Assembly: GCF_009498735.1 (NCBI RefSeq)
Contig: NZ_ML762427.1
Coordinates: 1-61,070, forward strand
Direction of reading: 5' to 3'
Origin: Gracilibacillus oryzae
GTDB taxonomy: Bacteria > Bacillota > Bacilli > Bacillales > Amphibacillaceae
Length of the DNA: 61,070 bases
The position numbers and the translations under genes were made by a program. Positions within the stretch are counted from its first letter, which is position 1. Each line of letters begins with the position of its first letter. Of this stretch, positions 39,917-46,830 are shown one piece after another. Below the pieces are notes generated by a model that saw nothing but the letters and a program-made list of their open reading frames with translations, was not told where the DNA came from and did not search any database.

Positions 39917-39983
39917 TTATGAGCATAATACGATCAATTGCTGTAAGATTATGCTAACATCTTGATTAAAAGGAGGAATGACT

Positions 39984-40463
39984 ATGTCAGTCTTTGATAT
40001 CTCAGTTGAAACAGTAAACGGAAGCGAAAAAAAGGTAAATGACTATAAAGCGAAAGCTATCATTGTTGTTAATACTGCGAGCAAGTGCGGCTTTACCCCT
40101 CAATTCGACGGACTGCAGGAATTATATAATAAATATAAAGAGGATGGATTGGAGATTTTAGGTTTTCCAAGCAGCCAATTTATGAACCAGGAACCAGGTT
40201 CAAGTGAAGAGGCAGAGGAATTTTGCCGGCTAAACTACGGGGTAAGTTTCCCGATGTTTGCCAAAATCGATGTACGCGGAAAAAATGCCCATCCGCTCTT
40301 TAAGCATTTAACCAAAGCTGCCCCCGGCATTATCTCTGATCAAGTAAAATGGAACTTCACAAAATTCCTCATTGACGGGGAAGGCAATGTAATCAAACGT
40401 TACGCTCCAAAGACAGAACCAAAAGATATAGAAGATGATATAAAAGAACTAATTTATAAATAG
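39984..40463 (+). CDS. bsaA: Glutathione peroxidase-like thiol peroxidase (BsaA/Gpx)
   Basis: A 159-residue Gpx-fold peroxidase. The catalytic Cys is in [16 protein letters not shown] (about residue 35), with [16 protein letters not shown] and [10 protein letters not shown] forming the Gln and Trp/Asn parts of the catalytic tetrad. Bacillaceae enzymes of this type are cysteine-based and probably use thioredoxin. The ATG at 39984 follows AGGAGG by seven bases. Confidence 0.9.
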
Positions 40464-40504: not shown

Positions 40505-40706
40505 TGCCATTGTCTCCCTCTCCTTCACAATCTAACCCTGTTAATCCATTCTCATTTGTTAACCAATGAAATATACTGTCAGATAATCTCCCAATAAACA
40601 TGACGTTTTATCTACCTATATAGTAATATCGACTCACGTTATAATTCTATTTAGTAATAAATACAGCATAGACTTCATAATTCACTATTTCGAAGGGATG
40701 ATCTTT

Positions 40707-42990
40707 ATGGAAACGTTGCAATTGCACTTGGACTTTGTATGGTTAATACTTGCCTCCATATTAGTCTTTTTTATGCAGGCCGGTTTTACCGCCTTAGAAG
40801 CAGGCCTTGTCAGAGCAAAAAATTCGATCAATGTCGCAATTAAAAATGTCAGTGATTTATTAATTGCATCCGTAGTCTTTGCATTGTTTGGATTCGGCAT
40901 TATGTTCGGAGATTCAGCATCTGGCTGGTTTGGAACAGATTTATATTTCTTTCAAGGATTAGATACAGACCCATGGAACTGGGCTTTTTTATTTTTTCAA
41001 ATTGTATTTGCAGGTACTGCTGCTACCATTGTATCTGGTGCCATAGCAGAAGGCGTGAAGTTTGGTGTTTATTTAATCGGAACATTCTTTATTGTCCTCA
41101 TCATTTACCCTGTATTCGGTCATTGGGCATGGGGAAGTTTGCTAAATCCTGACCAGGCTGGCTGGTTAGAGCAATTGGGCTTTGTCGATTTTGCAGGTTC
41201 CACTGTCGTTCATTCCATTGGCGGCTGGGTGGCATTAGCAGCAGCGATCGTTGTCGGTCCACGAGTAGGAAAGTATGTTGACGGAAAAGTCCATTCAATG
41301 AAACCATCTAATGTTGTCCTGGCGGCACTTGGTGTATTTATTTTATGGCTGGGATGGTTCGGTTTTAATGCCGGTTCTACTGCGACTGGTGATACATCCA
41401 TTGCCCAGATTGCATTAAATACACATTTAGCTGCAGCTGCCGGGGGATTATTCGCCATGATTACTAGCTGGATACTGTTTCAACAACCAAAAGCAGAGGA
41501 TATATTAAATGGAGTTCTGGCTGGATTAGTTTCTGTAACAGCAGGTGCTGCCGTATTAACACCATTAATGGCACTAGTAGTTGGAGCAATAGGCGGGATT
41601 ATAGTTGTATTCTCTCTTATTTTTATCGACAAGGTATGGAAGATTGATGACGCAATTGGCGCTATTTCCGTTCACGGCGTGTGCGGGGCATGGGGTACTT
41701 TAGCTGTCGGATTATTTGGCACAATGGCTTTATTACCCAACGAAACAAGAATGGAACAGATTCTAGTGCAAGGACTTGGTGCAGCTGTGGCATTTGTATG
41801 GGGGTTTGTCCTTGGATGGATTGTTTATAAAACGCTTGGATTATTTATGACCATTCGCCCCAAAAAAGAAGAAGAGATTCAAGGTCTTAATGTCAGTGAA
41901 CATGGAGCATCGATCGCTATGGTTGATACAATTCAGTCCATGCAGGATATCGCGAATGCAGCAGGTGACTTAACCAAAACAATGAAAGTAGAGCCAGGTG
42001 AAGATACTTATGAATTAAATCATGCTTTTAATAAATTATTAAGTCAACTGAACACATTGATAAATAAAGTAAAAAAAGCGTCCTATTATGTTGAATACTC
42101 TTCTGTAGATTTAATCAATGTAACAACAGATCTTAAAGAAAAAAGTAAAGAACAAGTAGAAACAATCGAAACGACCCATCAAGTGTTTTTGAAAACTGAT
42201 AAGAAGCTGGAAGAAGAATTAGAGCGAGAAAATGAAGTGATCGCAAGCAACCATTCAGCAATTCTTTTCTTCTGTCGAGCATGTCGGCGAAAAGGTGGAA
42301 ACATTAACAGAAGAAATGCAAAACATCCGAACAATTATGGATGAAATAACCCAAACCAATGGTGAAGTAAACAAAACGATTGATCATTATCAAAAACAAA
42401 CAGCTCAAGTACAGCAGTTTTCGGATAGAAGTGATACAGTTATGCAAGCAATTCATGACATTGCAGAACAAATCAATCTGTTAGCATTAAATGCGGAAAT
42501 TGAAGCAGCACATGCCGGAGAGTTTGGGAAGGGATTCGCTGTTGTTGCTGCAGAAGTACGGAAATTAGCAAAGCAGTCTAAACAATCTTCATTAGAGATT
42601 AAAGAAATCATGGAAGGTACTGTTCATACGATACAAAAAGAACAAACAGGATTTACGAGATTGTCATCCAAGTTACAAAAACTCTCCAATCAATTGCTCT
42701 TTATGCCAGATAAATTTCATCAGATGGATGATGAAGTGAATGACATTCATGCTATTATGAATGATTTTTCGGTGAATCTGCAATTAATGAGCAAGGATAC
42801 ATCTGAAATGCTTGAAAGCAAACATGAGCAAAAAATTAATTTCCAGCATATGAGTGAAAAAATAGAAAAGATATTTGAACAAATGAAAGAAAGTGATGTA
42901 TCGATTGAAGATATGACTGAGAAAATCAGACATATGAAAGAGGAAAGCATGACACTATCACAAACAGTCAAAAAGTTTAAAACAACCTGA
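40707..42990 (+). pseudogene. Ammonium transporter fused to methyl-accepting chemotaxis signalling domain, frameshifted
   Basis: About 760 codons in two frames. Residues 1-378 are a complete Amt/AmtB channel: eleven helices, twin histidines in FAGSTVVHSIGG and ISVHGVCGAWG. A linker follows (EIQGLNVSEHG..., then a coiled coil, about 379-515). At the TTTT run 42265-42268 the frame is one base too long: the first frame ends at 42344, while the +1 frame continues without a stop to 42990. Dropping one T restores [20 protein letters not shown] and the chemoreceptor hairpin tip [19 protein letters not shown] then [15 protein letters not shown] (about residue 585). There is no HAMP and no periplasmic sensor. 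Ammonium passage through Amt would be read by CheA/CheW. The second part could start only at the ATG 42295. Not certain whether the shift is real or a sequence error. Confidence 0.85.
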
Positions 42991-46554: not shown

Positions 46555-46683
46555 TAAAATTTATATTCATAGTAAAGAACTTGGTTTTAAGAATGCAATT
46601 TTTCATCGAGGAATAAAAGCACAAAGAAACAAATGTGCTCTCATCATTTTCCCACAGAAAATAAGACACTTCTCCACCATTTT

Positions 46684-46830
46684 CCTTTTCCCATCCAGAC
46701 TTTCACTGTCGGCTTTGGATTCACACCAAATCCACCTTCACATTTTCACAAATGATCCGGGTCACGGACTTAAAAGCAGATTTGCTTTCTCACCGTCGGT
46801 CGGGAATTGCACCCTGCCCCAAAGGAATCA
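46684..46830 (-). promoter_or_regulatory. FMN riboswitch (RFN element)
   Basis: The minus strand has the conserved aptamer blocks in order: TTTGGGGCAGGGTGCAATTC, CCGACCGACGGTGAG, AGTCCGTGACCC, GGATTTGGTGTGAATCC, GCCGACAGTGAAAGTCTGGA and TGGGAAAAGGA. FMN binding is expected to favour the downstream terminator and switch off ribDEABH. Confidence 0.95.

Follow-up and report, generated by a model that had tools for sequence, protein, structure and literature searches.

Two kinds of protein in which an ammonium transporter (Amt) fold carries an output domain are already known and solved, an Amt-kinase (6eu6) and an Amt-GGDEF protein (8qj3), and Amt as a sensor was reportedly reviewed by Tremblay and Hallenbeck in 2009. 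The kinase, Ks-Amt5, has an internal ammonium site formed by Q24, E31, N47, D50, T51, T109 and T112 (PMC5764959); it is reported to bind ammonium without translocating it, and its authors describe it as having no HAMP. A full-text literature search, with most subscription journals outside its scope, gave papers on ammonium chemotaxis that mostly concern Chlamydomonas, one being on Clostridium strains (PMC9689628), and found no paper on an Amt joined to a chemoreceptor signalling domain (Amt-MCP). Here we set beside the solved architectures an Amt followed by a chemoreceptor hairpin, present in public records. The locus considered lies in the window, the whole analysed stretch of 61,070 nucleotides from Gracilibacillus oryzae, for which a sequence-only reading had proposed a single protein whose ammonium transport or binding drives chemotaxis directly. 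It is probable that intact members of the family are nitrogen-regulated ammonium chemoreceptors, judging by their Amt fold, their HAMP and a hairpin of the host's length; we infer that ammonium would be the ligand and its binding the trigger, and that the protein would be incorporated into the receptor array and give an attractant response.

A frame-broken copy and its open-frame relatives

The 5' ORF of the locus (40707-42344, + strand), terminated by a stop codon of the broken frame, encodes the Amt domain, a linker, a HAMP-like segment and the start of a coiled coil; the start Met of orthologous proteins is equivalent to the ATG at 40707, and a further in-frame ATG lies at 40698. Its Ammonium_transp domain (40737-41909, +) carries the Trp/Ser selectivity filter, the Phe gate and the twin His, and has QEND at four positions of the Ks-Amt5 site. 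The earlier description of a complete Amt with both twin histidines holds, as PF00909 matches at near full length (residues 11-401, profile 1-396 of 399, E 1.4e-112, 376.8 bits, cut-off 23.2), TIGR00836 reaches 394 bits (cut-off 343.3), and the histidines align with H171/H326 of Ks-Amt5, the gate with F103/F223 and the selectivity residues with W144/S227. The 3' ORF (42295-42990, +), in a frame differing from that of the Amt ORF, encodes the remaining chemoreceptor signalling domain, with a Pfam MCPsignal match at 42364-42810 (+; PF00015, E 2.1e-30, 106.3 bits, cut-off 34.6). The conserved hairpin tip of the sequence-only reading is also there, as a 19-residue motif at 42466-42522 (+) that we take to be the CheA/CheW contact region. 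Pfam finds no kinase family (DHp/CA) in the window ORFs, and none appears for 14 fusions among the 25 of 98 Pfam families listed.

The ORF map and homology to relatives place the frame-change zone of this assembly at 42230-42295 (+), homology switching frames between ~42230 and ~42260. The window amt-mcp is two ORFs in different frames, not one polypeptide in this genome, and the copy as assembled is unable to make the fusion protein. The single protein proposed earlier does exist in relatives: the gene is one uninterrupted ORF of 759-760 aa in five Gracilibacillus congeners and one Aquibacillus (these relatives include Gracilibacillus lacisalsi, G. suaedae, G. massiliensis and Aquibacillus albus), and another eight Bacillales copies have open frames of 767-803 aa. 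Two ORFs could also mean that a plain amt merely stands next to a truncated mcp and that the pair resembles a fusion. The uninterrupted ORFs of the relatives, gamma- and alphaproteobacteria among them, show that the fusion is not chance, and the FN-to-tip and GDLT-to-tip spacings described below are constant in 12 Bacillales fusions, 11 of which are 45-79% identical to the first. Nor is the MCP part a separate truncated gene in relatives, being one ORF with the Amt in 5/5 fusion-bearing congeners and in further genera, or a plain amt followed by an unrelated MCP the arrangement of close relatives. The chance that two adjacent genes were mistaken for a fusion is therefore negligible, and this candidate was rejected on the single ORFs.

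What the break in this strain represents is harder to judge, and the window copy may be a recent pseudogene or a sequencing or assembly error. We put loss of function at slightly below an even chance. Besides the frame change itself, a recent pseudogene would fit the divergence of the MCP half (dN to relatives 0.28-0.30, where intact copies from separate species groups differ by 0.19-0.24), the Amt half having hardly drifted (0.11-0.13 against 0.10-0.12 among intact copies), and would fit the mismatch in the upstream regulator box. Both halves, however, are free of further stops, and non-synonymous differences are far fewer than synonymous ones in both, at synonymous sites that are saturated, for which reason dN/dS was set aside as a pseudogene test. 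One box mismatch also occurs in two congeners with intact genes, and a sequencing error could be present in this draft of 53 contigs.

A glutathione peroxidase gene (39978-40463, +) lies upstream of the fusion and convergent riboflavin genes, lumazine synthase first, lie downstream, so that the fusion gene is probably its own transcription unit. Riboflavin genes follow the fusion in 5/5 congeners; in Aquibacillus, Halobacillus and Salibacterium the available DNA around the fusion showed none of the genes that flank it in the window, and at two loci (L046 and L047) a peroxidase gene stands on the strand opposite the fusion. An FMN riboswitch (46679-46830, -, Rfam 110.5 bits) precedes the adjoining riboflavin genes. 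Elsewhere in the window Rfam reports a Bacillaceae-1 RNA (802-869, +, 60.2 bits) and, at the very edge, a tRNA (1-72, -, 73 bits), ARAGORN reporting no tRNA in the window.

The family was searched with the junction segment alone as query (159 genomes, no more than 25 candidates being scored in each), and 36 genomes matched at E <= 0.001: this genome and six others at E <= 1e-30, the remaining 29 at 1.3e-6 or worse. Six of the 17 genomes in the genus match, this one included; the 11 others gave no junction match among at most 25 candidates per genome (two genomes being <90% complete), and the gene thus seems dispensable. Across the order, 9 of 397 genomes, again including this one, match at E <= 1.2e-34, while at 1e-6 the number rises to 116, those beyond the nine being receptors without Amt-sized frames. 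Both parts were matched in 2 of 398 genomes of a class sample (this one and one of the nine) and in 3 of 321 gammaproteobacteria, where a fourth locus (L176) has the MCP tip by sequence. With 8, 2 and 3 candidates scored per genome in the order, class and gammaproteobacterial searches, respectively, an absence in them carries little weight.

Two short junction patterns run against GTDB species contigs returned 16 loci. Six are Bacillales Amt-MCPs (G. lacisalsi, G. suaedae, G. massiliensis, Aquibacillus albus, Halobacillus litoralis and Salibacterium qingdaonense) and four are of the Nitrincola type (L056 truncated where its contig ends, L055 a short ORF); by motifs read by eye, four more are Halopseudomonas/Pseudomonas Amts with PAS-GGDEF-EAL-like tails and two are Amts with kinase-like tails. 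Plasmid records of Tritonibacter mobilis (two) and Phaeobacter inhibens (one) match over 98% of the protein, a domain scan confirming one Tritonibacter record and the Phaeobacter record, so that two roseobacters (alphaproteobacteria) join the Bacillales and the Nitrincola-type gammaproteobacteria as carriers. Viral contigs queried with the MCP half gave no relative. On the Phaeobacter plasmid, pP88_b (L247; typed conjugative), a recombinase gene and an IS481 transposase gene come after the Amt-MCP gene, and the sensor may be mobile in roseobacters. Nitrincola schmidtii (L199, G903) has two fused Amts, an Amt-MCP of 761 aa and an open frame of 1167 aa that groups in the tree with PAS-GGDEF-EAL-like fusions; in this species ammonium may control swimming and a second messenger alike.

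The HAMP, the hairpin and the host's receptors

The sequence-only reading had seen no HAMP between the two parts. We find a degenerate one (GDLT...EDTYELNHAFN) at about 41934-42053 (+), recognised by its position, its spacing and profile comparison. Among 14 fusions, PF00672 matches eight at E <= 1, the best of them at 8.2e-6; given the segment alone, it scores 27.8 bits on one Nitrincola protein (cut-off 25), 18.7 on Halobacillus, 17.9 on L068, 15.2 on Salibacterium and 14.2 on the window, the last below the cut-off, and does not match L067. An unrelated model, HsbA, is higher on the window segment (19.2 bits), yet below its own cut-off of 33.5. The Phaeobacter protein reaches 17.5 bits with PF00672, and the Tritonibacter protein has no match at E <= 0.01. 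When a profile of nine fusion segments was aligned by hhalign with a profile of nine clear, hand-chosen HAMPs from the genome's own receptors, 48 columns were paired at a probability of 96.5%, against 0.4% for a control in which the coiled coil just behind the segment was compared with the host HAMPs.

Distances to the tip point the same way. The FN of the second HAMP helix stands 148 residues before the tip, and GDLT 169 residues before it, in 12/12 Bacillales fusions. The host's other receptors (20 of 21, L006 being missed by the tip pattern) have an FN, LN or YN motif at the 148 spacing in six cases, a looser motif at 141 or 160 in three and none in the rest; GDL or GNL stands at 169-171 in ten, at 154 in two and is absent from eight. 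The stretch behind the tip measures 171 residues in the window ORF; 12 relatives have 171-182 there, and 17 of the 20 host receptors 170-173. By these sequence measures, a degenerate HAMP joins Amt and hairpin at the host-receptor spacing from the tip, and the hairpin is of the host's own receptor length class.

The Nitrincola fusions have their own distances, GDLT and FN lying 155 and 134 residues before the tip instead of 169 and 148. Nitrincola receptors have GD or GN at 153-157 in 9 of 25 rows and FN or LN at 134 in three, the rest having no motif or other spacings (two of the rows are the same protein, and the tip pattern missed L216 and L228). In a tree built from 150 residues surrounding the tip, 13 Bacillales fusions make up one clade (support 96), which falls on the Gracilibacillus receptor side, and four of five gammaproteobacterial fusions fall with Nitrincola receptors (split support 92); several branches of this tree are long. 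The hairpin tree and the host-specific spacings together suggest that the cytoplasmic half was taken locally.

The host genome has 22 MCPsignal matches over the cut-off, the window fusion included, and a che locus in the order cheB-cheA-cheW-cheC-cheD-sigma factor. The hairpin could instead signal elsewhere than to flagellar chemotaxis, for example to a pathway for pili or a second messenger that has a CheA of its own; we hold this to be very improbable, since just one of three CheW-domain matches is in a CheA-sized ORF, within that same cheB-A-W-C-D locus with its sigma factor, and since the hairpin has the length of most other host receptors.

Probable nitrogen regulation and a proposed mode of sensing

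An exact TGTNAN7TNACA is present within 300 bases upstream of 9/15 Bacillales fusions, and the remaining six, the window included, have a site with one mismatch; that of the window is at 40577-40593 (no strand given), 130 bases 5' of the ATG. This is the TnrA/GlnR consensus, and TnrA activates nrgAB (amtB-glnK), according to a published study (PMC6191146). Exact boxes were found in 64 of 5000 random 300-base windows and 29 of 3000 letter-shuffled upstreams, and before 0 of 108 other ORFs (>=150 aa) of the same loci, 18 of which have a one-mismatch site. The scan used automatically set start codons for L067-L073, and L014 also has an equally good site elsewhere. As the 15 upstreams are non-independent, the count per genus is 7/10, with Gracilibacillus (3/6) taken as one and all genera assumed distinct. 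Across six 20-kb neighbourhoods the sole exact boxes are four that precede amt-mcp, the other two neighbourhoods having none. As a positive control, a plain amt of this genome (L113) has two boxes just 5' of its probable start. The genome encodes both TnrA (NF053740, 169 bits, cut-off 140) and GlnR, each with its namesake as the nearest PDB chain, and the tnrA and glnR genes each have an upstream box. A sigma-D promoter was also considered and rejected, relaxed matches alone being found, on the opposite strand, in 2/9 upstreams. Judged by these boxes, amt-mcp is probably switched on by nitrogen shortage.

That no glnK is adjacent, as the sequence-only reading remarked, is correct, but weighs little: a whole-genome PII search gave a single match, on another contig, to the C-terminal part of a 220-223-aa protein (L115, 2035-2703; G000:C13), and no stand-alone GlnK. 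The PII-domain protein adjoins a large ORF resembling a membrane protein.

Among PDB entries the window Amt is closest to Ks-Amt5 (6eu6, 387.8 bits), followed by 8qj3/8qpf (317), Af-Amt1 (170) and AmtB entries (118-152). At the seven positions of the Ks-Amt5 ammonium site it has Q, E, N, D, L, T and S, so that five are identical, one is conservatively replaced (S for T112) and T51 is lost to L. The QEND set is found in all 13 distinct Bacillales fusions compared, the window included (14/14 alignment rows), and in none of the plain Bacillota Amts examined. It failed as a mark of sensors only, however, being present in a plain Puniceicoccaceae Amt (L146) and in 12 of 15 plain gammaproteobacterial Amts (L181-L183, L185, L187-L193 and L201; L192 is cut by a contig end); four other plain gammaproteobacterial Amts (L161, L162, L167 and L168), from outside those 15, lack it, and two fused Amts deviate from it (L186 QENN, L119 QENT). 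QEND thus marks a clade and is no proof of sensing. Most plain gammaproteobacterial QEND Amts have GLDYSEHYEVGYPEFQ-like tails, and the nine QEND Amts of this kind that the tree includes are sister to its fused Amts.

Quick trees of the Amt domain, made without bootstrap from a selection of fetched Amts, unite all output-fused Amts in one clade (SH-aLRT 97 with 68 rows, and 98 with 62 rows, 31 fused and 31 plain, after six rows with long branches, two GGDEF rows among them, were removed). Bacillales fusions form one clade (96) and gammaproteobacterial fusions group with one GGDEF protein (99); alphaproteobacterial Amt-MCPs lie outside these trees. Bacillales and gammaproteobacterial Amt-MCPs are separated, although their joint grouping is not rejected (p-AU 0.059). 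A single origin of all Amt-MCPs was set aside on this split, and two origins are likely. A 648-aa Amt of class Bacilli (L119, G714), with a kinase-like tail resembling, by eye, the NarX/DesK type, pairs with Ks-Amt5 in the tree. An AlphaFold2 model built on ten rows (pLDDT 63.7) was too poor for use.

Between transport and binding, a choice left open earlier, the balance tips to binding, since the closest company of the Amt part is Ks-Amt5, a binder that does not translocate; by this analogy the fusion would sense by binding more than by transport. Transport may nevertheless occur, as two of the three Ks-Amt5 residues that block the channel are not kept (F27 is retained, whereas Y30 and F34 are both L). 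The Amt part could then be a transceptor, with the hairpin reporting flux or charge movement and one protein both feeding and steering the cell. Its complete set of canonical transport residues (selectivity Trp/Ser, Phe gate and twin His), the retention of only one of three channel-closing residues and the QEND set of plain gammaproteobacterial Amts, presumably transporters, would all fit. We nonetheless consider it unlikely, given that the Amt part clusters with output-fused rather than plain Amts, that the genome's four Amt genes, this fusion among them, leave three others that could handle uptake, and that Ks-Amt5, a clade member of described function, is reported not to translocate ammonium (PMC5764959).

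A proposed relay and its known counterparts

The ammonium chemoreceptor that we favour would work as follows in an intact relative. Under nitrogen scarcity TnrA, or the release of GlnR, would raise amt-mcp expression, as the box suggests; ammonium would enter the Amt vestibule and bind an internal acidic site resembling that of Ks-Amt5; the Amt C-terminus, which adjoins loop 5 of the neighbouring subunit, would move on binding; the movement would be relayed via the GLNVSEHG segment and the HAMP to the hairpin; and the hairpin, within an ordinary receptor array, would alter CheA activity. The steps after induction are proposed by likeness to Ks-Amt5 and to chemoreceptors generally. The proposal that ammonium drives chemotaxis through one protein finds support in the architecture, the matched receptor length and the nitrogen-regulator box, for the family rather than for the broken window copy.

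The main puzzle is how dimeric hairpins could be driven by a trimeric sensor. Amts are trimers, HAMPs and hairpins are dimers, and receptor arrays are built of trimers of dimers. The mismatch is shared by Ks-Amt5, for which transient dimers were suggested (PMC5764959). The subunit count is equal, at six, in two Amt trimers and in one receptor trimer of dimers. It is possible, and we offer this only tentatively, that each HAMP/hairpin dimer is shared by two Amt trimers, the three dimers reading one trimer's binding cooperatively, and that a transporter fold was repurposed at least twice (in Bacillales and in proteobacteria) by way of a local receptor's cytoplasmic half. If the two-trimer arrangement is true, the symmetry mismatch would be settled and a chemoreceptor with three-fold sensor symmetry would be at hand.

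Ammonium is a main nitrogen source, and in the intact family there is now a specific candidate for a bacterial chemoreceptor dedicated to it, one that comes with a likely regulator and with the host chemotaxis locus identified. Certain halophilic soil bacteria and a number of marine ones are the carriers, and their cells could steer by ammonium. Annotation hides such proteins, the intact Phaeobacter inhibens Amt-MCP being named merely 'ammonium transporter'. Amt sensing without transport becomes testable in a genetically easy Gram-positive, and a trimeric sensor driving dimeric hairpins would be a sharp test of symmetry in chemoreceptor signalling.

Compared with bacterial chemoreceptors of the host's length class, the fusion has the same HAMP position, hairpin length, tip sequence and after-tip length; where they have a periplasmic ligand-binding domain between two helices, its sensor is an Amt, an 11-helix trimeric transporter fold. 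AmtB/NrgA transporters share with it the fold, the twin His, the Phe gate and the selectivity residues, whereas AmtB has neither the QEND set nor an output domain and is at the bottom of its PDB matches, at the 118-152 bits given above. The TnrA/GlnR box of the fusion genes is likewise what one would expect for nrgAB (PMC6191146). The Amt-GGDEF proteins (8qj3/8qj4/8qpf) have a related Amt part and a similar exit from it (GLNFGEFG in 8qj3, GLNVSEHG in the fusion), but end in a GGDEF (residues 439-628 of 8qj3, also in 8qpf) rather than a CheA-facing hairpin; relatives of the Amt-GGDEF(/EAL)-like kind occur in Halopseudomonas and Vibrio sp. THAF191d (GGDEF 158.5 bits), several with a HAMP-like stretch by eye. 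Closest of all is Ks-Amt5, the Amt-histidine kinase of Candidatus Kuenenia stuttgartiensis, which is the fusion's best PDB match and belongs to the same clade. Its Q24, E31, N47, D50 and T109 are identical in the fusion and T112 is represented by Ser, while T51, Y30 and F34 are not kept. Both proteins bear their output at the C-terminus and combine a trimeric sensor with a normally dimeric output, which in Ks-Amt5 is a histidine kinase and in the fusion a HAMP and chemoreceptor hairpin.
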